A DNA stretch of 64,000 nt, from NCBI GenBank assembly GCA_951802425.1, contig OX637806.1:1178001-1242000 (forward strand), read 5' to 3'. This stretch comes from Clavaria fumosa (taxonomy: Eukaryota; Basidiomycota; Agaricomycetes; Agaricales; Clavariaceae). A program made the position numbers and the translations under genes. Shown one piece after another: positions 43,081 through 62,084 of this stretch (position 1 is its first letter; each line of letters starts with the position of its first letter). The notes beneath the pieces are model-generated. The model saw nothing but the letters and a program-made list of their open reading frames with translations, was not told where the DNA came from and made no database searches.

Positions 43081-43316
43081 CTCACACAACTTAATGTAAG
43101 GTCAATGATGATGATACTAACATAAGGGGAAAAGGGTACAAGTAAGGAAAGGATGTAGTATATATAGCAGGAGCTTCAGGTGTTGCTGGCATTCCCACAC
43201 TTGGACCCCTTGTGTCATGTGATGCACCAGAGGCCTGGGTCACATGATGTATGATTACCTAATCTGTCTGCTGTGCCAGTCACATGACTTACCTGTGATC
43301 TTCCCACAACTCTTTC

Positions 43317-44754: not shown

Positions 44755-44759
44755 GAAAT
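44755..44759. repeat. Target-site duplication of Gypsy element 1 (left)
   Basis: GAAAT directly before the 5' LTR; the same five bases follow the 3' LTR at 50654-50658. Confidence 0.9.
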
Positions 44760-45063
44760 TGTCAGGATCGCTTACATAAGCAGGTTGGAAAGGCCAAGAA
44801 AGGATCGCAAAAGAGTTGCGGGAAGTTTGCGGATGAGTCACGTGACCCGAACGGGTGGTGGCTTACATAATGGGAAATCACGTGACCCGGGCCTGGACGC
44901 ATCACGTGACGCACAGGGTCCGAGCGTGGGAACGCCGGCAACTCCCGAACCTCTCGCTATATATACTACGTCGCTTTCTTACTTGTACCCTTTTCCCCTT
45001 ATGTTAGTATCGTCATCATCGACCTTACGTTAAGTTGTGTGAACCGTGAGACTAAGTCTGACA
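44760..45063 (+). repeat. 5' LTR of Gypsy element 1
   Basis: 304 bases. Contains CACGTGAC-type boxes, a TATATATA box at 44958-44965, and the self-primer copy ATGTTAGTAT at 45001-45010, which probably marks the RNA 5' end. Confidence 0.93.
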
Positions 45064-45065
45064 CA

Positions 45066-45075
45066 ATACTAACAT
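45066..45075 (+). promoter_or_regulatory. Self-primer binding site of Gypsy element 1
   Basis: ATACTAACAT, two bases after the 5' LTR, is the exact reverse complement of ATGTTAGTAT at 45001-45010 within the LTR. This is the arrangement used by Tf1-type elements, where the RNA 5' end folds back to prime minus-strand synthesis instead of a tRNA. Confidence 0.75.
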
Positions 45076-45716
45076 CAACCCCTGTCTGCCCTAGCCCCGT
45101 GTCCTAACCCGGCTAGCCTGGACCCCTATCTCAAACTGTCACACTCTGTGACAGCTTATCCCCCTCATCCTCTTTCTCTTTACCCTGCCCACGGTGTGCA
45201 ACAGAACCGTGTGAAATTTTTACTGTGTGTAGATACACGTGACCAGACCCAGAGGAAGTCTACTGTGACCCTCCCCAAGAGACACCGAGTGCCAAAGGCC
45301 CGGAACTTTGCTTTACAGCTACGTACCAGTGAATCGTGTAGTGTACAGGGCGCGGAAAGGCCCTATACATAGTTTTTCTGTAGTTTCCTGGTCCAGTGGA
45401 CAGGGCCCTTGCTCTGTGACCATTGTCAGAAGGGCACACGGGCAACTCACTAGGAGTTGTGGAGTGACCACCTGGGACACCATTTGGGCCCCACGCTAGC
45501 AACAAGTTTTATAGAATAAGAGTTCTATAAGTACCTAGATACATAGAGAGCAGCCTGAGAGGACAGGACTGCTAAGAGATCGAAGAAATCCTGAGTGCCC
45601 AAGGCCCAGAATTCTATTTACAGCGTCTGCATCCGAGACCGGGTCGAGCCCAGCTCCCCCTTGATTCCCCTGTTACCAACGTCCCCGAAACCCCATCACC
45701 ACCACCAGGGTCTGTG

Positions 45717-46718
45717 ATGGCTGACCACGTCGCCCCGCCTGAAGTCCATGCCACGAGGCTGGATTTAGTCGTCGCCCCATTCGATGGGCAAAAAAGAAAT
45801 TTCCGTACATTCCTCCGGTCGCTCCGCCTCCTGTTTATGGCGAATCCGATAATCTATGCCACGGACCTGGCAAAGGTCCTCTACACCCTCAGCAAAATTA
45901 CTCGCGAGGGGTTTGCCGCAGAATGGGCAAATGTGAAGGGAGAGGAAATCCTGGGTAACAACGAGGTTGGAACCTGGGCAGAATTTGTGGAAGAGATGAA
46001 GCGAGCGTTCGATGACCCGAACGACCGTGCGACTGCCCTCGCAGATATTGCGAAGTTGAAACAGGGTGTCATGACGGCACCTGAGTTCTTCGCAAAGTTC
46101 GAAACAATGTTCCGAAGAGCGGGGATGACAGAAGTGGCCAATTCGGACATCCTGGTCCATTGGCTGGAGTCGAATCTGAGCAGGAGGCTAGTGGGAAAGG
46201 TCTATGGTGTTTCGCCAATGCCAGAGACCTACGTGCAGTGGAAGGCACTTGCTGAAAAGCTAGACGCTCAGCAGCATCGCCTCGACAGAGTCATCGCACA
46301 ACAGAACTCTGTGCATCCTGCTCTGCCCACAACCAGCCGCCCCCTCCCTCAACAAACCCGCTTCGCCCCAGCCCCCCGTCCCTTCCTGGCCCAGCCTCTG
46401 GCCCGCACCCCTGCCCCTCCCACCATGCCGCGTCCCACCAATGCCGGTGATGCCATGGTGGTGGATCGTGCCCATGCCCCTGGAGTGTTGCGCACCTGCT
46501 TCCGATGTGGCCAAGCTGGTCACATGGTGAGAGATTGCCAGCTCCAGGACACACGTCCGCAGATCCCGAGGCCGCAGATCCGTGCCGTGGAAAGCCAGGC
46601 ACGTAGTGCAGAGGACTATGAGAACGAGATCGCACTGCTCCGAGACCGCCTGGATTTGCTCGAGAGAGAGAAGAGGGCTCCTGTTGAAGAGCCGGATTTT
46701 GGAGACGAGGCCCAGTGA
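45717..46718 (+). CDS. gag: Gag polyprotein of Gypsy element 1
   Basis: 333 residues from the ATG at 45717 to TGA at 46716. Capsid-like N-terminal part (PFDGQKRNFRTFLRSLRLLF, FVEEMKRAFDDPNDRATA), then a Pro-rich linker and one CCHC zinc knuckle (CFRCGQAGHMVRDC), then a short coiled-coil. The pol frame lies at -1 and overlaps; the shared open window is 46688-46718. I see no standard slippery heptamer there. Confidence 0.9.
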   Translation: MADHVAPPEVHATRLDLVVAPFDGQKRNFRTFLRSLRLLFMANPIIYATDLAKVLYTLSKITREGFAAEWANVKGEEILGNNEVGTWAEFVEEMKRAFDDPNDRATALADIAKLKQGVMTAPEFFAKFETMFRRAGMTEVANSDILVHWLESNLSRRLVGKVYGVSPMPETYVQWKALAEKLDAQQHRLDRVIAQQNSVHPALPTTSRPLPQQTRFAPAPRPFLAQPLARTPAPPTMPRPTNAGDAMVVDRAHAPGVLRTCFRCGQAGHMVRDCQLQDTRPQIPRPQIRAVESQARSAEDYENEIALLRDRLDLLEREKRAPVEEPDFGDEAQ

Positions 46719-49700
46719 GTCCGAACTGGAGTCTCAGGAGTAGATATCCCAGCCCCCCTCCCGTCCCTGTACCCGCAGCTAGTATCCCAAAATACACTAT
46801 CTTGCAGCGGAGACACACCCGGATTGGGGCTGAGGTGAAGGACAAAGCGGAAACGGAAACCGCTAAAAGTGAAATACCGAAAAGAGAAAAGGGGACTAGC
46901 AGCCAAGTGGAGCCAACAAAGCACCTTGCAGAGGTGCTGAAGGACACCCTATTGCGTATGCCCCGAGAGCTCTCCATCCAGGTGCACCTGGAGGCTCTCA
47001 GCACTGGCAAAGGGGCAACTACGAAAGCCCTTGTTGACTCAGGCTGCACCAACTGCTTTATGGACTTGGAGTGGGCGAAAAAAGTGGGATTGGAACCATC
47101 TCCCTTGCTGAATCCAATCACCATGTATAATGTGGATGGAACACAGAACAGAGATGGTAAGATCCGGTATGGGATGGAGCTGCTTGTGACGGTTGGCGAC
47201 CACCAGGAGCGGATCCACTTCCTGCTAGGGAAGACTCAGTCCCACACGGCGATCCTTGGGCATGATTGGCTAAAGCGTCATAATCCAGAAATTGACTGGG
47301 TGAAAGCTGAAGTAAGGCTCACCCGCTGCCCCAACTCCTGTGCCTCCTCCCCACACAGCCACCGGTCCCCTGTTCGACCCTCAGGTCCACCAAAAGCGAG
47401 TACCCTGGCCTCGGCCAGTATCCCGGACACCCGTTTTCCCAACACTGGCCCTACCCCTGATTGGCCCAGCCGCTACCCTTTGGTTTTTAGTGAAGCAAAG
47501 TGGGATGAGCTCCCCCGCTCCCGCCCTGACTTTGATATCAAAATCGAGTTTAAAACAGACCCTGGACACCTCTCCTCTAAGCTATACTCTCTGACGCGAG
47601 AAGAGATGGTGGAAATGAATCGCTGGGTGGATGAGCAGCTAGCTTCTGGACGAATCCGACCTTCGAAGTCCCTGTACGCGAGCCCCTTCTTCTTCAAACG
47701 TGAGAAGGACAAGCTGCGGCCGATTATCGATTACTCTAGGCTGAACTCGTATCTAATCAAAGACAAGTACCCCCTCCCCCTCATACGAGACACTGTGGAT
47801 GTGTTAAAGGGGGCGACCATCTATTCCAAGATTGATGTGAAGGGAGGTTTCCCATCGATGCAGGTCTGGCCAGAACATCAGCACCGCTGTGCTTTCCTAA
47901 CGCCCCGTGGACTCTTCGAACTGGCAGTTATGTGGTTTGGGCTGCAGAATGCGCCTGCAACCTTCCAGCGCTTCATGAACCATGTGTTGAGAGAAGAGAT
48001 TGCAGGGGGGCATGTCCGAGCCTATGTCGATGATGTTATAGTGTTTGCAGAGGATTTGGCTACACATCGGTATTGGATGGATTGGGTCTTGAAGAAGTTT
48101 GGGGAGAATGGCCTGTGTCTCAGACTCAGCAAGTGCAAGTTCGAGAAGAGTGAGGTTTTCTTCCTGGGGATGAAGATCTCCCACAACCGTCTAGAGCATG
48201 ACCCAGCTAAAGGCGCGGCGATCCGTAACTGGCCCAGACCGAAAAATGTGAAAGAGGTACAAAGATTCAACGGGATGCTGAACTACCTCCGCCGGCACAT
48301 CCCAAATCTCTCTGCCCGGGCAAAACCACTCTTCCGGCTGACAGGGAAAGTCCCGTGGAGATGGGAGGAGGAGGAGGAAGCAGCCTTCCAAGATCTCCGC
48401 CTGGCACTAGTATCAGCCCCGGTCTTGGCTCTACCACAAGACAAAGGGAGATGGAAGGTAGAAACAGATGCGAGCAACTTGGCGACTGGAGGAGTTCTCT
48501 CACAGCAGCAGGTGGATGGGACTTGGAGAGTTGTAGACTACATCTCCAAAGCCCTCACTGCAGCTGAGAAGAATTACGATGTGTACGACAAGGAGTTCCT
48601 GGCTGTAATCTGGGCACTACGCGAGTGGCGGGCTTACCTGATTGGGGTGGAAGAGACTATCGAAATCTGGATGGACCATGCTAACCTCCAGTACTTCCGG
48701 AAGCCCCAGAAGTTGAAACCAAGGCAGGTCCATTGGGTTGGAGAGCTCCAGTGCTTTGACTTCGAGATCAAGTACCGTACTGGGAAGTCAAACACGAAAG
48801 CGGATGCACTCTCACGGAGGCCAGACTATGGAGAGATGGTGGAGGAGGATGCACCAGTACAGGTCTTCCCAGAGGCTGAGACCCGCACATCGTTCACATC
48901 GGAGATGGAGACGCTACTCCAGAAAAACAGTGCGGTATATGTGCAGAAGCCGGAGGAGCTTGATGATGAGTGGACGAGAGATCGGATGGGACTCTGGCGG
49001 AAGGCAGAAATCACTTGGGTGCCCCCAGAAGCACGTGAGGCAGTGCTCACCTTTGAGCATGACCTCCCCATCGCAGGACACCCTGGTCCACGGAAACTGA
49101 GGGCGGCTCTGCTGAGGTCCTATTGGTGGGTGGGCATGGTGAAGGATTCCAATCGGTATGCAGGTGGATGTGAGACATGCCAACGAATCAAGCCTGATCG
49201 TACCAGGCGCGCCGCTCCACTCCATCCGCACCCTGTCCCTGAGAGCCCCTGGGCAGTCATCTCTTGGGACATTGTTGGACCTTTCCCCCTCTCACGTGGT
49301 CACAATGCAATCCTTGTCATTGTCGACAAGTTTACAAAACGAACTCTCATCGAAGCTATTGGCCTTGACCTCACGGGACTTGGTGCTGCTCGGATCCTTC
49401 GAGACCGGGTCTTCCGCGACCATGGAGTCCCGCAGAAAGTTGTGAGTGACCGGGGAACCCAATTTGTGTCCAGATTCATGAGGGAGTTTTATGGGATGAT
49501 TGGAGTTAAGGCGAACCCGAGCACTGCCTTCCACCCACAAACAGATGGACAGACAGAGCGGGTCAATCAGGAGGTTGAAGTGTATCTCCAGGCCTATGTT
49601 GACCATCTGCAGGATGATTGGGCAGAGTGGCTATCCACAGCCGAATTCGCGCTCAATAACCGTGAGCACTCAGCCACTGGATTCACACCTTTCTATCTGG

Positions 49701-50338
49701 AGTATGGCCGGCACCCTTGGAATGGTGGTATCCGGCCGCCCTCTGAAGTGAACCCTGCAGCAGACGAGTGGATGGCCAAGCTCACGGAATCCTGAAGAGC
49801 AGCCAGGGATGCAATGGGGAAGGCGGCAGATGCGATGAAGGCTAGCTATGATAAAGGAAAGCGCCCGAGTTGTGAATACTCAAAGGGGGACTTAGTCTGG
49901 CTGGATACCCGGAACCTGAAAATGGATCGACCATCCAAGAAGCTTGACAACAAGTGGGCTGGACCCTTCACCATCGAAGAGAAGGTTGGACCAGCAGCAT
50001 ACCAACTCAAGCTCCCCCGAGCATGGCGCATTCACCGGGTTTTCAATGAGTTGCTACTCACCCCGTATATTGCTCCCTCTTTCCCTTCCCAGAACTTGCC
50101 TCCACCCCCACCCCCCACGATTGACGATGACCACTTGGAGTATGAGGTGGAGGAAATTCTTGATGTCAAGAAGGTTGGACGGGGAGTGAAGTATTTGGTG
50201 AAGTGGTTAGGATACCCTGCAGAGGAGAACACCTGGGAACCTCGTCGCAACCTCACTAATGTTGCACTGTTGCTCCGGGACTTCTTCCAGCAATACCCTG
50301 ACAAGGCGAAGTTGGCAGGTCGAGACGCCCAGCCTTAA
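46715..50338 (+). pseudogene. pol: Pol polyprotein of Gypsy element 1, one in-frame stop
   Basis: One frame from about 46688 to the TAA at 50336, interrupted only by TGA at 49793-49795. Order: aspartic protease (ALVDSGCTNCFMD), reverse transcriptase (YVDDVIVFAED), RNase H (KVETDASNLATGGVL), integrase with zinc finger (GHPGPRKLRAALL ... CETCQRIK) and catalytic residues in ISWDIVGPFPL, VSDRGTQFVSRF and TDGQTERVNQEVE, then a chromodomain (YEVEEILDVKKVGRGVKYLV ... NTWEPRRNL). At the stop the sister element has CGA, so a C-to-T change at a CpG is the likely cause. The break lies after the integrase core and before the chromodomain. Confidence 0.92.
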
Positions 50339-50349
50339 GAGGGGGGTGA

Positions 50350-50653
50350 TGTCAGGATCGCTTACATAAGCAGGTTGGAAAGGCCAAGAAAGGATCGCAA
50401 AAGAGTTGCGGGAAGTTTGCAGACGAGTCACGTGACCCGAACGGGTGGTGGCTTACATAATGGGAAATCACGTGACCCGGGCCTGGACGCATCACGTGAC
50501 GCACGGGGTCCGAGCGTGGGAACGCCGGCAACTCCCGAACCTCTCGCTATATATACTACGTTGCTTTCTTACTTGTACCCTTTTCCCCTTATGTTAGTAT
50601 CGTCATCATCGACCTTACGTTAAGTTGTGTGAACCGTGAGACTAAGTCTGACA
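50350..50653 (+). repeat. 3' LTR of Gypsy element 1
   Basis: 304 bases, nearly identical to the 5' LTR; flanked by GAAAT at 50654-50658. Confidence 0.93.
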
Positions 50654-50879
50654 GAAATCTTCAAAGCTCAAGATTGACCAACAAGCATCCATGATGAAGT
50701 GAGTATGCTTTGCCACCGCACCACTACCCATTCACCTCAGCTCGGCTCACTACATAGAACAGCAGCACACGATGCGCTGCATCATTGTGCCACCCTTCCT
50801 CCTTCGTTTCTTATGAACAATGCTCCATAGTTTACCCATAGTTAGTACTTATACAGTCACTTTGCACTTGTAGGAGTTC

Positions 50880-51060
50880 ATGTGTTCTCTTTCTTACTGC
50901 ATGAACTCCAGGTCAGTAACTCTGTCTATCTTACACTTATTCTACACTAATACACATGTTCTCTTTCTTACTGCGTGAACTCCAGGTCAGTAACTCTGTC
51001 TATCTTACACTTATTCTACACTAATACACACATTCTCTTTCTTACTGTGTGAACTCCAGC
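50880..51060. repeat. 74-bp tandem repeat, 2.3 copies
   Basis: Copies begin TTCTCTTTCTTACTG at about 50885, 50959 and 51033, with few differences. Lies just upstream of a Copia gag fragment. Confidence 0.85.
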
Positions 51061-51130
51061 TTTGTTACTGGTGTACCTGTGCTGCTGAAAGATTATGAGA
51101 CCTGGCAATGGACAGCTGGACTTGGCTACA

Positions 51131-51316
51131 ATGGACACTTTCAGATTTCTGAAATTGAATGGGCAAAACTACATGAATTGGTCTGTACATATGCAGTCTG
51201 TACTGCAGGCCAAGTACCTATGGTTAGTTGTAACTGGCATTGAGATTTGCCCCACCACATCAGCAAAGTGCAATCAGGCTATATGCCATTTGGCAGTGCT
51301 GCACAGACAGCTGTAG
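51131..51316 (+). pseudogene. Ty1/Copia gag fragment
   Basis: Open frame starting MDTFRFLKLNGQNYMNWSVH and continuing QSVLQAKYLWLVVTG, the usual N-terminal pattern of Copia gag (LNGxNYxxW). It ends at a stop at 51314. No protease or polymerase follows here; a Copia pol fragment on the same strand lies 11 kb away at 62.1 kb. Confidence 0.65.
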
Positions 51317-51567
51317 AGCCATAGAAGCCATAGACAACTTCCTTATATGTGTAGAACTGTGTAGCACAGCATGATTGCTTTGTAGGGGAACATGACCCAC
51401 TGCAGCACTACATAGGTCTAGAATAAAGCTACAGAGTCCTACATAGAAAACATGTAGCTAGTGGCAGGTCCTACATCTAAACTATGCTCAACTACACTCA
51501 ACTGCACAACCACACAATTGCAACTAAATCAGTATTTGTATTTGTTTTATGATCAACAAAGTCATGT

Positions 51568-51572
51568 GATAC
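51568..51572. repeat. Target-site duplication of Gypsy element 2 (left)
   Basis: GATAC before the 5' LTR, repeated at 57187-57191 after the 3' LTR. Confidence 0.9.
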
Positions 51573-51862
51573 TGTTAGGATCGCTTATGTAAGCCATCCC
51601 AAAGTGCAGTTGTGGAGAAACTGGGGAGGGTTGTTGGAAGGTCACATGACCTGTGGCTGTGGTCAGATTACATAATCGTAAGATCACATGACCTGGGCCT
51701 GGGCGCATCACGTGATCCGAGAGGTCCGAGCGTGGGAACGCCGGCAAATGCCGAAGCGTTCGCTATATATACTACGTCTTTTCCATTCTTGTACCCTTTT
51801 CCCCTTATCTTAGTATTGTCATCATGACCTTACGCTTAAGTTGTGTGAGACCCAGTCTGATA
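51573..51862 (+). repeat. 5' LTR of Gypsy element 2
   Basis: 290 bases with a TATATATA box and the self-primer copy ATCTTAGTAT at 51807-51816. Confidence 0.93.
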
Positions 51863-51864
51863 TA

Positions 51865-51874
51865 ATACTAAGAT
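51865..51874 (+). promoter_or_regulatory. Self-primer binding site of Gypsy element 2
   Basis: ATACTAAGAT, two bases after the LTR, is the exact complement of ATCTTAGTAT at 51807-51816. Compared with element 1 both strands of the pair have changed together (G-C to C-G), supporting real pairing. Confidence 0.78.
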
Positions 51875-52436
51875 CCGCCTGTCCGCCCTAGCCCTGTGTC
51901 CTAACCTGGCTAGCCTGGACCCTTAATTTCAAACTGTGACACGTTGTCACAGCTCAGCCCCTATCATCCTCTTCTCCTTTACCCTGCCCGCAGTGTGTAA
52001 CAGAACCGCGCGAAATTTTTACTGTGTGTAGATACACGTGACCAGACCAGGAGGAAGTCAACTGTGACCCTCCCCAAGTGATACCGAGTGCCCAAGGCCT
52101 GGAACTTTGTTTTACAGCTACGTACCAGTGAATCGTGTAGTGTACAGGGCAAGGAAAGGCCCCTACATAGTCTTTCTGTAGTTTCCTGGTCCAGTGGACA
52201 GGGCCCTTGCTCTGTGACCATTGTCAGAAGGGTGCACGGGCAACTCATTAGGAGTTGTGGAGCGACCACCTGGGACACCATTTGGGCCCCACGTTAACAA
52301 AAGTTTCATAGAATAAGAGTTCTATAGGTACATAAGTACACAGAAGAGCAGCCTAAGAGGACAGGACTGTTAAGAGATCGAAGAAATCCTGAGTGCCCAA
52401 GGCCTGGAACTTTATTTACAGCATCCAGGGCCTGTG

Positions 52437-55400
52437 ATGGCAGACCATGTCGCCCCGCCTGTAGCCCAACCTATGAGGCTTGACCTATCTGTTGCCCCCT
52501 TTGATGGGCAGAAAAGGAACTTCCATACATTCCTCCGATCCCTTCGCCTCCTGTTTATGGCGAACCCGACTGGCTATGCTGTGGACCTGGTGAAGGTCCT
52601 TCTTGCTCTGAGCAAAATTACTGGAGAAGGATTCGCTGCAGAGTGGGCGAATATGAAGGCGGAAGAGATCCTGGGTAGTGGCGAGGCCGGAACCTGGGCA
52701 GAGTTTGTGGAGGAGATGAAGCGTGCATTCGATGACCCGAATGACCGTGCGACTGCCCTTGCCGATATTGCAGGGCTGAAACAGGGTGCCATGACAGCAC
52801 CAGAGTTCTTCGCGAAATTCGAGACGCTGTTCTGACGGGCAAAGTTGAGTGCAGAGAAGGACTCAGGAATCCTAGTCCATTGGCTGGAGTTGAACCTGAG
52901 TAGGAGATTGGTGGAGAGAATCTATGGTGTCTCCCCAATGCCAGAGACATATGGAGAATGGAAGGTGCTGGCTGAGAGGCTTGATGCCCAGCAAAGGCGA
53001 CTGGATGGGATACTCACGGAACGGACACCGCGACCCACTGTGACCCCCGCGCGACCCACCGCGACCCTACCGCGACCTGCCGTGACCATTTCGCAACCTC
53101 TTGTGACCCCTCTGCTGTGTACTCCAGATGTGGCCATGGCCCGAGGATGGGCCCCTGCTGATGAGAGATGTTGTTTCCGATGCCACCAGACTGGCCATGC
53201 TGTCCGTTTCTGCCCCCTGCCTGATACACGTCTGCAGGTCCCAAGGGCCCAAACCCGGGCAGCACCATGTGCCCCCCAAATGGCGGAGGGATATGAGAAA
53301 GAGATTGCACGGCTCCGAGCCTGCATAGAGCTGTGTGAGAGAGAGAGGAGGACTCCCACTGGGGAGAAGAAGTGTGCCAGCCCCCTTTCCGTCCCTGTGC
53401 CTGCTGCAAGTATACCCCGATATACTATCTTGCAGCGGAGACATACCCGAATTGGGGTTGAGGTGAAGGAGGAAGTGAGACTGGCAGAGCGCCTAACCAG
53501 AGTGCGGCCAGAAGTGCGGAAACATGTGCCACGAGAGCTAGCCATCCAGGTGCACTTGGAGGCTTTCAGCACTGGCAAAGGGACCACAATGAAGGCCCTT
53601 GTCGACTCAGGGTGCACCAACTGCTTCATGGATTTGGAGTGGGCGAAAGGAGTGGGACTGGAGCCATCTCTCCTGCTGAACCCAATCACCATGTATAATG
53701 TGGATGGGACACAGAACAGGAATGGAAAGGTCCGGTATGGGATAGAGGTGCTGGTGAGAGTTGGTGACCACCAGGAGCGGATCCACTTTCTGCTGGGAAA
53801 GACCCAGTCCCACAAGGTCATCCTTGGGCATGACTGGCTCAAGCGGCATAACCCGGATATCGACTGGCAGAAGGCAGAGCTGAGCCTTACCCGCTGCCCC
53901 CCACAGTGTTCCCCATCCCCTCGAGCCTCCGCACCCCTGAAAACGAGTACCCTCGCATCCACGAGTATTCTGGACACCCGTTTTCCCAACTCTGGCCCTA
54001 CCCCCAATTGGCCCAGCCGCTACCCTTTGGTGTTTAGTGAAGCGAAGTGGGATGAACTTCCCCGCTCCCGACCAGACTTCGATATTAAGATCGAGTTCAA
54101 AAAGGACCCTGAGCACCTCTCTTCCAAGCTGTATTCTTTGACTTGGCAGGAGATGGTGGAGATGAACCGTTGGGTGGATGAGCAGCTTGCTTCTGGACGA
54201 ATCCAGCCCTCGAAATCCCCGTATGCCAGCCCCTTCTTCTTCAAACATGAGAAGGACAAGCTGCGGCCGATCATCGACTACTCGAGGCTGAATGCACACC
54301 TGATCAAGGACAAGTACCCCCTCCCCCGCATCCGAGACACAGTGGATGTGCTTAAAGGAGCGTCGATCTACTCTAAGATTGATGCAAAGGGAGGTTTCCC
54401 ATCTATGCAGGTCTGGCCCGAGCACCAGCACCGCTGCGCCTTCCTGACACCCCGTGGACTCTTCGAACCAGCTGTCATGTGGTTTGGACTGCAGAATGCC
54501 CCTGCTACCTTCCAACGCTTCATGAATCATGTGTTAAGGGAGGAGATTGCAGGAGGACATGTGAGGGCCTATGTGGATGATGTCATTGTGTTTGCAGAGG
54601 ACTTGGCTACACACCGGTACTGGATGGATCGGGTCTTGAGGAAGTTTGGAGAGAATGGGTTGTGTCTCAAACTCAGTAAATGCGAGTTTGAGAAGAGTGA
54701 GATCATCTTCCTGGGGATGAAGATCTCCCACAACAGACTAGAGCATGATCCGGCCAAGGGTGCGGCAGTCCAAGATTGGCCACGTCCCAAGAATGTGAAG
54801 GATGTCCAGAGGTTCAATGGAATGCTGAACTACCTCCGCCAGCACATCCCGAATCTTTCTGCCCGGGCAAAGCCACTCTTCTGGCTGACTGGGAATGTTC
54901 CATGGAAATGGGAGGAGGAGGAGGAAGCAGCCTTCCGAGATCTCCGCCAGGCACTCGTATCGGCCCCGGTCTTGGCTCTGCCTCAGGACAAAGGGAGATG
55001 GAAGGTAGAGACAGATGCAAGCAACCTGGCAACTGGTGGAGTGCTCTCGCAGCAGCAGACGGATGGAACCTGGAGAGTTGTTGACTATATCTCCAAGGCC
55101 CTCACTGCAGCTGAGAAGAACTATGATGTGTATGACAAGGAGTTCTTGGCTGTGATTCGGGCACTTCGTGAGTGGCGAGCATACCTCATTGGAGCAGAGG
55201 AGACGATTGAGATCTGGACGGACCATGCAAACCTCCAGTACTTCCGGAAGCCCCAGAAGTTGAAGCCGAGGCAGGTTCGTTGGGTTGGAGAGCTCCAGTG
55301 CTTTGACTTTGAGATAAAGTATCGCACTGGCAAGTCGAATACAAAGGCAGATGCACTCTCCTGGAGACCGGACTATGGAGAGATGGTGGAGGAGGATGCA

Positions 55401-56885
55401 CCGGTGCAGGTTTTCCCGGAAACGGAAGTCCGTGTGTCATTCACATCGGAAATGGAGACGCTACTCCAGAAAAATAGCGCGGTACACATACAGAAGCCGG
55501 AGGAGCTTGATGATGAGTGGACACGAGATCGTGCTGGACTCTGGCGGAAGGGGATAGTCACTTGGGTCCCCCTAGGAGCTCGTGAGGCCGTTCTCGAGTT
55601 TGAGCATGACCTCCCCGCTGCTGGACACCCTGGGCCCCGGAAGTTGAGAGCAGCACTAGTGAAGGGTTATTGGTGGCCGGACATGGTAAAAGATGTGGAT
55701 TGGTATGCCCAGGGGTGTGAGACATGCCAGCGGACGAAGCCCGACTGTACCAAGCGTGCTGCCCCACTGCACCCCCATCTGGTGCCCGATGGTCCCTGGT
55801 CGGTGATTTCATGGGACATAGTCGGTCCCCTCCCCCTCTCCCGTGGACATAATGCCATCCTTGTTATCGTCGACAAATTCACGAAATGGACACTGCTCGA
55901 AGCGATTGGGCTCGACCTCACAGGACTTGGAGCAGCGCATCTCCTCCGGGATCGAGTGTTTCGCGACCATGGAGTCCCTCACAAGGTTGTGAGTGACCGG
56001 GGGTCCCAGTTTGTGTCCCGCTTCATGAAGGAGTTCTACTCCATGATCCGGGTAAAGGCAAATCCAAGTACTGCCTTTCATCCACAGACTGATGGACAGA
56101 CGGAACGGGCGAACCAGGAGATGGAGATCTATCTCCGGGCTTATGTGGACCATCTCCAGGATGACTGGGCTGAATGGTTGTCCACTGCGGAGTTTGCTCT
56201 TAATAATTGTGAGCACTCAGCGACAGGACAGACACCTTTCTTCCTCGATTATGGACGACACCCATGGAATGGGGGGCTCCAGCCACCTTCTGAGGTGAAC
56301 CCGGCGGCGGACGAGTGGATGGCTAAGCTCACGGAGTCCCGAAGAGCAGCCAAGGAGGCAATGGAGAAAGCGGTGGCAGCGATGAAGAAGAGCTACGATA
56401 AGGGGAAACGCCCAAGTCGGGAGTACTCTGAGGGAGATCTGGTCTGGCTGGATACTAGAAACTTGAAGATGGACCAGCCCTGTAAAAAGCTTGACAACAA
56501 GAGAGCAGGCCCCTTTGCAGTTGAGGAGAAGGTGGGACCTGCTGGGTATCGTCTCAAGCTCCCTCGGGCCTGGCGCATCCATCAGGTCTTCAATGAGTTG
56601 CTGTTGACACCATACCACCCCCCCTCCTTCCCTTCTCAGAACCTGCCTCCCCCTCCACCCCCTACAATTGATGACGACCACCTGGAGTATGATGTGGAGG
56701 CGATCCTTGATGTTAAGAAGGTGGGACGTGGGGTGAAGTACTTGGTGAAGTGGTTGGGATATCCAGTGGAGGAAAACACTTGGGAGCCCCGTAGGAACCT
56801 CACTAACGTAACGTTGCTTCTCCGGGACTTCTTCCTCTCCCACCCCGACAAGGCCAAGCTAGCTGGTCGGGACGCCCAGCCTTAA
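52437..56885 (+). pseudogene. gag-pol: Gag-Pol polyprotein of Gypsy element 2, one in-frame stop
   Basis: Single frame from ATG 52437 to TAA 56883, interrupted only by TGA at 52833-52835 within gag (after PEFFAKFETLF). Element 1 has CGA at this codon. After the stop: the rest of capsid, CCHC knuckle (CFRCHQTGHAVRFC), protease (ALVDSGCTNCFMD), reverse transcriptase (YVDDVIVFAED), RNase H, integrase (WDIVGPLPLSRG, VSDRGSQFVSRF, TDGQTERANQEME) and chromodomain (YDVEAILDVKKVGRGVKYLV). Unlike element 1, gag and pol share one frame; the stretch that holds the gag stop in element 1 is missing here. The post-stop part (52845-56885, 1346 codons) is fully open. Confidence 0.93.
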
Positions 56886-56896
56886 GAGGGGGGTGA

Positions 56897-57186
56897 TGTT
56901 AGGATCGCTTATGTAAGCCATCCCAAAGTGCAGTTGTGGAGAAACTGGGGAGGGTTGTTGGAAGGTCACATGACCTGTGGCTGTGGTCAGATTACATAAT
57001 CGTAAGATCACATGACCTGGGCCTGGGCGCATCACGTGATCCGAGAGGTCCGAGCATGGGAACGCCGGCAAATGCCGAAGCGTTCGCTATATATACTACG
57101 TCTTTTCCATTCTTGTACCCTTTTCCCCTTATCTTAGTATTGTCGTCATGACCTTACGCTTAAGTTGTGTGAGACCCAGTCTGATA
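56897..57186 (+). repeat. 3' LTR of Gypsy element 2
   Basis: 290 bases, about two differences from the 5' LTR; followed by GATAC. Confidence 0.93.
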
Positions 57187-57204
57187 GATACTCTAATTGT
57201 AGGG

Positions 57205-57315: not shown

Positions 57316-58905
57316 TTAATTTTTTAATTTTTTTCCTTGTTTATACTCCTATTGGGGCGTTGCCCTAGGTGCATTAAAAAACCCCCAGCATGAGGGAAAA
57401 AGCTACCGGGTGCCGTTCGAACACTACGTACTGTACTGGCATGGGTTGGGGTTTTAGGGTGTCAGGTGTGGGGTGTGAGCATCGGGTGTGGAGTGTGGGG
57501 GGTTTTCGAGTGGGTGGGCGGGTGTTGTTCATGTTGTGTGCCGTGTGTCATATCGTGAGTCTCGTGTCACCTTGCGAGTCTTGTGTTGTGTCTTCTTTCG
57601 GCATTGCGTTTTATGTTTCTTTGGTGTTTACATTGCAGGGATGGTGATTTGGCGGCCAGTGGGGATGGGGATGGGGGGGTTTCGTCCTCTCTGTGGTGCG
57701 TGTCGAGTGCGTGGGCCATCCGTGGTTGTGTCGTGGTGCACTTGCCTGTTTCCTGTGTTCGTTGTAGTTGATCTTGTGTGGTGGCCGTCTCGTCTGAATC
57801 GCTTTGATGCTATGGTGTATTTGACCATTTTCGGGGTGAGTTCCGGGTCTGTTAGTAGGCATCGTATGCTTCGCGTTGCCCTCCCAGTTCCATTTATGAT
57901 GGCATTCCTTTCTGTGGTGGTTTGCATGCAGGTTAGGAGGAAGTGTCTTACTGTCTCTTCTTCTTGTTCGCAGTATGGGCATTGGGGGGTTTCGATCGTG
58001 CTGATCTTGTACAGGTGTGCGTTCAGGGGGGCGTGTCCGGTTCGTAGTTGTAATAGGATTGATGATTGTAGTTGGGGGGTGTCTGCTGTTAGTTTTAGGA
58101 AGGATTTCGAGGGGAGGGACTCGTCTAGTAGCGTGGTGCGGTTGTAGCGCAGTGATTTGCACCACCACTCTTTTGCCTGTTCTTGAATCTTCTTCTTCGC
58201 TGTCTGCTTTATGGCTGATTTGCATCTTGGGATGGGTCCATGTAGCGCCCTTGGGAGTCTTCTCGTAGGGCTCGAGTTTCTGCATGCGGCGTCTTTGGCC
58301 GCTTCGTCTGCGAGTTCGTTTCCCTTGACTCCTTGGTGTCCTGGTACCCAGAAAGCTTCACACGCAAGGTTCGGTCGTGATCTCTGTAGGCGCCGGATGG
58401 CATCAGTAAAGGTGTCTATGAGGGTATGAGATGGGGCTGTTTTGTGCAAGTGTGTTGTGAGTAGAGCTGCTTGATTGTCTGCTGCTATGATTGCTGATTT
58501 GGTGGAGTTCGGTTCTGTCTTGAGGAGGTGTGCTGCTAGGATCAGTGCTGTGGCTTCTGCTGCGTATACCGTATAGTGTGCCTCGCTGCCCAGGTGTAGT
58601 TTCAGTGTCCGGCTGGTTCTTCCATTCCTTATTAGTATGGCTGCAGCGCCGATGCCGCCCTCGATCCCCAACCCATCTGTGAATACGACGGAGTCAGCTC
58701 TTTTTTCGTTTAGTTTTTGTATCGCTTCTTCCTTGCTTGCGCATATGGTGGTGGGGATGGGCGCAGAGTTCTTGGGGTGTTGCCTTGCGGGGGTTAGTTT
58801 CTCTATGATATTTGGGTCTACCTCTGGGAAGTCGGCCGTGAGGCGGTGTATGGGGGAGTGGTGTCGTTTGGGGGTGTGTTTGTGTGCTCGCTGTAGGTGT
58901 CCCCC
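57316..58905 (-). mobile_element. 5'-truncated LINE (non-LTR retrotransposon)
   Basis: On the minus strand: an open frame from about 58900 to the stop at 57628, a 3' UTR, and an A-rich tail (57316-57345 as T-rich on the plus strand). The 5' end stops abruptly at the junction with Tc1-like DNA, as is common when LINE reverse transcription is incomplete. Confidence 0.8.
57628..58905 (-). pseudogene. LINE ORF2 C-terminal part (RNase H and zinc-knuckle)
   Basis: About 425 codons open at the 5' side. The RNase H domain begins VVFTDGLGIEGGIGAAAILI (first Asp), then YAAEATALILAAHLL (Glu), SAIIAADNQAALL (Asp) and WVPGHQGVKGNELADEAAKD (last His/Asp). A C-terminal zinc segment reads CPYCEQEEETVRHFLLTC. 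This RNase H plus CCHC order is typical of fungal Tad-like LINEs. Reverse transcriptase and endonuclease are absent because of truncation, so it is not autonomous. Confidence 0.85.
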
Positions 58906-60861: not shown

Positions 60862-61745
60862 GACTAGATCCACAGCTAATAGCTGTAATTAGTCTACAAC
60901 TAGCTGCAACTAGTCCACTAGATCCACAGCTAGTAGCTGTAACTAATTCACCAGATCTACAACTAGTAGCTGCAACTAGTCCACTAGGTCCACAACTACT
61001 AACTGCAACTAGTTCATTACATCTCAAGCTAATAGCTGTAACTAGTTCACTAGATCTACAGCAACTAGCTGCAGCTAGTCTACTAGACCTACACCTACTA
61101 GCTGCAAATAGTTCACTACATCTACAACTAATAGCTGTAACTAGTTCACTACATCTACAGCTAGTAGCTGCAACTAGTCCACTAGGCCCACAGCTAGTAG
61201 CTGCAACTAGTCCACTAGACCTACACCTACTTGCTGCACCTAGTCCACAAGATCCACAACTGGTAGCTGTAACTAGTCCACTGGACCCACAGCTAGCAGC
61301 TGTAACTAGTCCACTAGGTCCACAGCTGGTAGCTTCAACTAGTTCACTAGATCCACACCTACTAGCTGTAACTAGTTCACTACATCTACAGCTAATAGCT
61401 GCAACTAGTCCACTAGACCTACACCTACTAGCTGCAACTAGTTCACTACATCTACAACTAATAGCTGTAACTAGTTCACTAGATCTACAGCTAGTAGCTG
61501 CAACTAGTCCACTAGGTCCACAGATACTAGCTGTAACTAGTTCACTACATCTACAGCTAATAGCTGCAACTAGTCCACTAGACCTACACCTACTTACTGC
61601 ACCTAGTCCACTAGATCCACAACTGGTAGCTGTAACTAGTTCACTAGACCCATAGCTAGTACCTGCAACTAGTCCACCAGGTCCACACCTAGTAGCTGTA
61701 ACTAGTCCACTAGATCCACAGCTATCAGCTGTATCTAGTCTACTA
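60862..61745. repeat. 33-bp minisatellite, about 26 copies
   Basis: Degenerate units of the form CCACTAGATCCACAGCTAGT followed by AGCTGTAACTAGT, period 33. Copies alternate TAGTCCACTAG and TAGTTCACTAG starts. Each unit contains CTAG and AGCT palindromes. Every frame is interrupted by TAG codons, so it is non-coding. Confidence 0.9.
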
Positions 61746-62084
61746 GTCCCCCATGTACTACCTTTGACAAGTTAACTTGACAAGTTGACTGACCATAAGG
61801 ATTCCTTGTCCAGCTGTAGCTGCAAAGAGTACACTATGAATTATACCTAACTGCTGTGTCTAGTTAATTATTTGATTCAGTACTACTGACCTGGAGGAGG
61901 TGCTGAAGGTCAGGGACCTCACCAGAACAAAGGACCAAAGGGTTCTAGGCAGGGACCATCAGCAAACATCACTGATTCAATCCCAGACTCCTCAGACAAA
62001 GAGTTTGCATTCACAGTAACTTGCACATCAACATTTGAAGATGTAGCAACTGCACTATACTCAGTCCCAGCAATTTGATGAGGT

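Follow-up and report, generated by a model that had tools for sequence, protein, structure and literature searches.

Self-priming of reverse transcription was first shown for Tf1 and, in the available parts of the relevant papers, is described as common to the Tf1/sushi elements (PMC10085805, PMC7175516). It has also been proposed for Tcn1 of Cryptococcus neoformans, a basidiomycete chromovirus (PMC7175516), and for Tj1 (PMC4600332), while the accessible text on plant elements gives most of the plant Tcn1 clade as predicted self-primers and extends the prediction to the Ty1/copia TAR elements (PMC6317226). The moss-type SM-Tcn1 (PMC2864245) and the dictyostelid Skipper chromoviruses (PMC5006619) are reported, in the portions of those papers that are accessible, to be without such complementarity. 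A -1 frameshift to pol is described in excerpts as predominant in the Tf1/sushi group outside the fission yeasts (PMC10085805 / PMC7175516).

The window analysed here, the whole stretch of 64,000 nucleotides of Clavaria fumosa DNA, lies in contig 13 of a genome that was searched as 48.8 Mb in 17 contigs, and the fungal names among the nearest-protein matches include Mycena, Phanerochaete and Agrocybe. It holds two elements, A and B, and it is suggested here, with a probability of about nine in ten, that both are Ty3/gypsy chromovirus retrotransposons that self-prime reverse transcription as Tf1 does. The features of element A are as follows.

44760-50653, plus strand: element A, a complete gypsy LTR insertion with a 5-bp target duplication
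44755-44759, second copy 50654-50658, no strand: target duplication GAAAT
44760-45063, plus strand: 5' LTR, 304 bp
44958-44965, plus strand: TATATATA box, starting 43 nt upstream of the primer site
45001-45010, plus strand: primer site ATGTTAGTAT, presumed RNA 5' end (putative start)
45066-45075, plus strand: PBS ATACTAACAT, exact complement of ATGTTAGTAT
45714-46718, plus strand: gag, Ty3_capsid/Retrotrans_gag with zinc knuckle
46715-49795, plus strand: pol, with protease, RT, RNase H and integrase, ending at TGA
49796-50338, plus strand: SH3_Tf2-1 and chromodomain, in the pol frame beyond the TGA
50350-50653, plus strand: 3' LTR, 98.7% identity to the 5' LTR, with identical primer site

The pol of A is in the -1 frame relative to gag and the two ORFs overlap; the LTRs terminate in CA. 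An A-like LTR fragment on the minus strand (43082-43248, 85% identity) also carries the ATGTTAGTAT site. The features of element B are as follows.

51573-57186, plus strand: element B, a complete gypsy LTR insertion with a 5-bp target duplication
51568-51572, second copy 57187-57191, no strand: target duplication GATAC
51573-51862, plus strand: 5' LTR, 290 bp
51764-51771, plus strand: TATATATA box, starting 43 nt upstream of the primer site
51807-51816, plus strand: primer site ATCTTAGTAT, presumed RNA 5' end (putative start)
51865-51874, plus strand: PBS ATACTAAGAT, exact complement of ATCTTAGTAT
52845-56885, plus strand: open frame with zinc knuckle, pol and chromodomain-like end, domains judged by eye
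56897-57186, plus strand: 3' LTR, 99.3% identity to the 5' LTR, with identical primer site

A single ORF in B joins the zinc knuckle to pol, where A has overlapping -1 frames, and the frame of B is open at the place where a TGA in A (49793-49795) splits RT-integrase from the SH3 and chromodomain. Both LTRs of B run TG...TA (ends at 51862 and 57186) and not to the usual CA. Elsewhere in the window are a minus-strand ORF of 347 aa (57628-58671), similar by eye to the RNase H end of LINE-type elements, and a tandem array (60899-61750) whose copy spacing is in multiples of about 33 bp.

The earlier note on this DNA had claimed that in both elements the ten bases lying 2 nt past the 5' LTR exactly complement ten bases within the LTR, and that the latter lie about 40 bases past a box. 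Read directly, A and B both have this complement, and the distance from the start of TATATATA to the primer site measures 43 nt in each. The 2-nt spacer between the 5' LTR and the PBS is CA in A and TA in B, the complementarity in B extends to 11 bases, and the primer site is the same in the 5' and 3' LTR of each element. Among Markov-simulated LTRs an equally long complement to the post-LTR bases arose in 4 of 3000 for A and 0 of 3000 for B, and the complementarity of primer and PBS in these two elements is confirmed to be well above chance. The RNA would start at the A of the LTR primer site, just past the TATA box, and its first 10-12 nt would fold back onto the PBS 2 nt after the 5' LTR, a step for which we rely on the complementarity, the predicted pairing and the paired change described below. 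By analogy with Tf1, the RNase H of the element would then cut behind the duplex and free the primer, which reverse transcriptase would extend through U5 and R.

The same layout was sought in 14 LTR pairs (eight of them of the A/B family) drawn from 37 repeat pairs in the window and 200 kb of contig 1; the pairs left out were the tandem array, pairs between copies, and duplicated segments without LTR ends. In 13 of the 14 the bases immediately internal to one end had a complement of at least 8 nt in the LTR, in none did those at the opposite end, and the single LTR pair without such a complement is a nested composite. The longest complement is 12 nt in family C, 12 nt in D, 15 nt in E (two elements) and, in F, 8 nt exact or 11 nt with one mismatch. 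Families C, D and E have primers unrelated in sequence to those of A and B, yet each primer complements its own PBS. Across elements A to F (five families) the complement lies 30-43 nt past a TATA box, with one mismatch in F, and the presumed primers all begin with an A preceded by C or T. The bases before this presumed first A are not always complementary, the first and second bases of the 15-nt match being non-complementary in 3 and 6 of 22 copies of E and the first base of the match in 2 of 17 copies of D, and this limits the extent of the primer. The self-priming layout recurs in every LTR family tested in the 200-kb sample, weakly so in family F, whose 8 exact bases were equalled by 111 of 3000 simulated LTRs. 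In element F one primer base of both LTRs misfits the PBS, and the fitting base occurs in another F LTR within the 200 kb.

Element F itself (L009:2052-6187) is 4.1 kb long, with LTRs of about 850 bp, a 5-bp duplication and a nearly complementary self-primer; it has only two ORFs of at least 150 aa and is therefore perhaps non-autonomous. Pfam detected PR-RT-RNaseH-IN domains in A, in C and, across two ORFs, in D, and it detected SH3_Tf2-1 and Chromo (PF00385) in A (after the TGA), C and D. In the E ORFs that were scanned it found RT and integrase core only, and no chromodomain. The SH3_Tf2-1 matches are suggestive of membership of the Tf1/sushi group.

When the predicted RNA that begins at the primer site and runs into the leader was folded, all bases of the primer and the PBS were paired in A (z -2.78) and B (z -6.95). 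Pairing between primer and PBS is predicted for C, D and E as well, and is missing from the predicted fold of F. The whole fold of E was better than its shuffles (z -2.40) and that of D no better (z -0.42). Tf1 has two side duplexes, and of these the duplex before the PBS was equalled or bettered by few of 500 shuffles in E (5), C (14) and B (26), by 52 in A, and by 213 in F and 370 in D, whereas the duplex after the PBS was unsupported in all six elements. The Tf1-like self-priming that the earlier note had proposed is borne out in its testable sequence features with the exception of this one side duplex.

The usual priming route of LTR elements is by tRNA, and it could be supposed that a host tRNA or tRNA fragment primes these elements too, with the LTR complement being incidental or serving some other fold of the RNA. 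At least 61 Rfam matches to tRNA genes were found in the genome, of which 40 (39 distinct) were compared; ARAGORN located no tRNA within the window or the 200-kb sample. A better match to a host tRNA 3' end, an outcome raised in the earlier note, did not emerge from these 40 genes, the longest being 1-2 nt in the six elements. Internal matches to tRNAs span 6-9 nt against 10-15 nt to the element's own LTR, except in F, where one tRNA matches the PBS region internally over 9 nt. On the PBS sequence, compared against 40 of the 61 tRNA genes identified, priming by tRNA was accordingly rejected, and since it also leaves the paired change in A/B and in D unexplained we regard it as highly improbable.

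This paired change is what distinguishes A from B at the primer. The one base pair that differs had been called compensatory, and it is so: G:C in one element against C:G in the other, a transversion on both sides with both LTRs concordant. A and B have a common ancestry, so the two elements alone amount to a single comparison, and the further comparisons come from the wider A/B family and from family D. A pattern with the variable positions left open found 589 junctions genome-wide (reversed-pattern control, 0), although it fixes most letters of the pairing and so badly broken pairs are invisible to it. In these further copies of the A/B family the pair co-changes, as the earlier note had led us to look for, and it is mismatched in only 3 of the 589 (two G/G and one C/C). 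Among 100 of these matches that were listed and read by eye, 96 were fully complementary, three had changes on the PBS side and one, a U-G wobble, on the primer side. The idea that the primer side mutates first was dropped because three of the four mismatched copies in this listed set were altered on the PBS side. A second pattern, with its anchor outside the pair, gave 457 genome-wide matches (control, 0), which is a pattern count only, the long-spacer strings stopping before the PBS so that pairs are unscored.

The G:C pair with the shorter spacing occurs 21 times genome-wide, and the C:G pair with the longer spacing was not found in the genome-wide pattern search. Targeted fetches, the 200 kb and the window together supplied 55 junctions, three of which were chance matches past 3' LTRs and were discarded; the remaining sample comprises 32 G/C, 17 C/G, two G/G and one C/C and was deliberately enriched for short-spacer G:C and mismatched copies. 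A tree of R/U5 and leader (51 rows) implies eight changes of the primer base and five of the PBS base, and a tree of U3 (50 rows) five and six respectively, with many branches weak in both. Tests on independent pairs, in the A/B family and in family D, yielded too few supported pairs to reach significance. We also considered whether the G:C copies with the short spacer carry a 10-nt patch at the PBS on an otherwise C:G backbone, and set this aside, their other segments leaning towards G:C or failing to resolve.

Family D is a separate repeat of the paired change, T:A versus A:T, again by transversions on both sides. Its 17 full-length junctions, among 40 scored matches, comprise seven T/A, nine A/T and one A/A (copy L107), and a tree built without those columns gives each side two or more changes. 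In seven of seven D elements checked the 5' LTR was concordant with the LTR taken from its position to be the 3' one, which indicates that the state of the pair was fixed before insertion. A few mismatched copies have moved, a sign that the earlier note had set against self-priming, namely the three A/B-family junctions, L107 of D and element F, and from these copies it seems that a single mismatch can be tolerated.

It might be argued that the covariation is accidental, the product of common ancestry or of a CpG decaying on each side. Being relatives, A and B owe part of their counts to inheritance. In family C, with at least 16 full-length matches in the genome, one of five copies viewed (L116) is altered on both sides of the pair, at a CpG, which decay could account for. 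Decay does account for family E, in which the CpG is variable on both sides (22 of 25 junction matches examined) and the primer-site CpG differs between an element's own two LTRs in seven of nine elements (L078-L097, E1, E2); this disagreement points to change after insertion and is not evidence of covariation. The changes in A/B and D are, on the other hand, two-sided transversions with concordant LTRs, mismatched combinations are rare, and complementarity also holds for C, D and E, whose primers are unrelated, so that there is very little likelihood of the covariation being accidental. Family E had looked good at first as evidence of covariation and was discounted as CpG decay. The differences between its LTRs are in themselves a sign that such decay has been heavy after insertion.

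If self-priming operates, the two sides of the pair may change together by copying. As LTR elements are reverse-transcribed, the primer, still attached, is copied into the PBS during plus-strand synthesis. Plus-strand strong-stop synthesis in the present elements could likewise copy the attached primer, such that the PBS of the new copy can become its complement, and a primer altered by mutation or template switch would reach the PBS one cycle later. That the PBS is rewritten in this way, and that co-change arises by copying and not by paired mutation and selection, is a tentative reading to which we give slightly less than an even chance. The C/C copy, L057, at C2:1997851, bears on this. Its U3 lies closest to C/G copies, at 11%, the figure for G/C copies being 17%, its R/U5 and its leader are nearest to A-type copies (2% each), and the U3 tree and the tree of R/U5 and leader place it oppositely, with support for the placements. 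The primer of L057 goes with U3, and the break is therefore at or just after the primer. This single case is as would be expected if the primer had already been cleaved from the RNA by the time of the first strand transfer, and it could also have come about by ordinary recombination. As to the other mismatched copies, the U3 of L055 is nearest to G/C copies and that of L056 to a C/G copy; of the three, mosaic status is claimed only for L057.

It is also possible, and we judge it not quite an even prospect, that the pair is maintained within self-priming by paired mutation and selection, the PBS not being rewritten from the primer. Mismatched copies demonstrate that the two sides can differ from each other temporarily, and change has occurred on either side (three PBS and one primer in the 100 matches listed). 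Against this, the general scheme of reverse transcription has the primer copied into the PBS, and in the mosaic L057 the primer goes with U3 and the PBS with the leader. Should rewriting of the PBS from the primer prove correct, self-primed families could drift until their primers were entirely new, and where two families recombined at the first strand transfer the break would fall at the 3' edge of the primer, with the primer accompanying U3. The presence of hundreds of copies and several primers in one genome makes PBS renewal in each cycle testable, and paired changes allow self-priming to be recognised from DNA alone. Among the literature titles listed, mostly outside subscription journals, none concerned self-primer covariation or PBS renewal in self-primed elements.

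Ty3 of Saccharomyces cerevisiae is tRNA-primed, unlike the reading given here for A. The solved structures closest by sequence to the pol of A are those of Ty3 (7q5b, E 9.9e-107; 4ol8). From the Tf1/sushi group the present elements differ in the TA at the LTR ends of B and, going by the accessible parts of the papers, in the CCHC knuckle of Gag, which the fission-yeast elements are without (PMC10085805 / PMC7175516). The three-duplex 'pretzel' of Tf1 is only partly supported by the predicted folds, and the primer, 11 nt in Tf1 as described in the excerpts available, would be 10 to about 12 nt here, depending on the family. Tcn1 is likewise a chromovirus with proposed self-priming, a comparison made by description from the available part of the paper (PMC7175516). 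According to the same kind of partial text, Tf1 and Tf2 of Schizosaccharomyces pombe, Tj1, Tosmo1-3 and Tcry1 likewise have an LTR-internal primer at the RNA 5' end, and the Tf1/sushi group shares with the elements described here a complementary PBS just past the LTR and a gypsy pol with chromodomain (PMC10085805, PMC4600332, PMC7175516). On our best reading the mechanism itself is that already known for the Tf1/sushi type and proposed for Tcn1, and what is new is these self-primed members.
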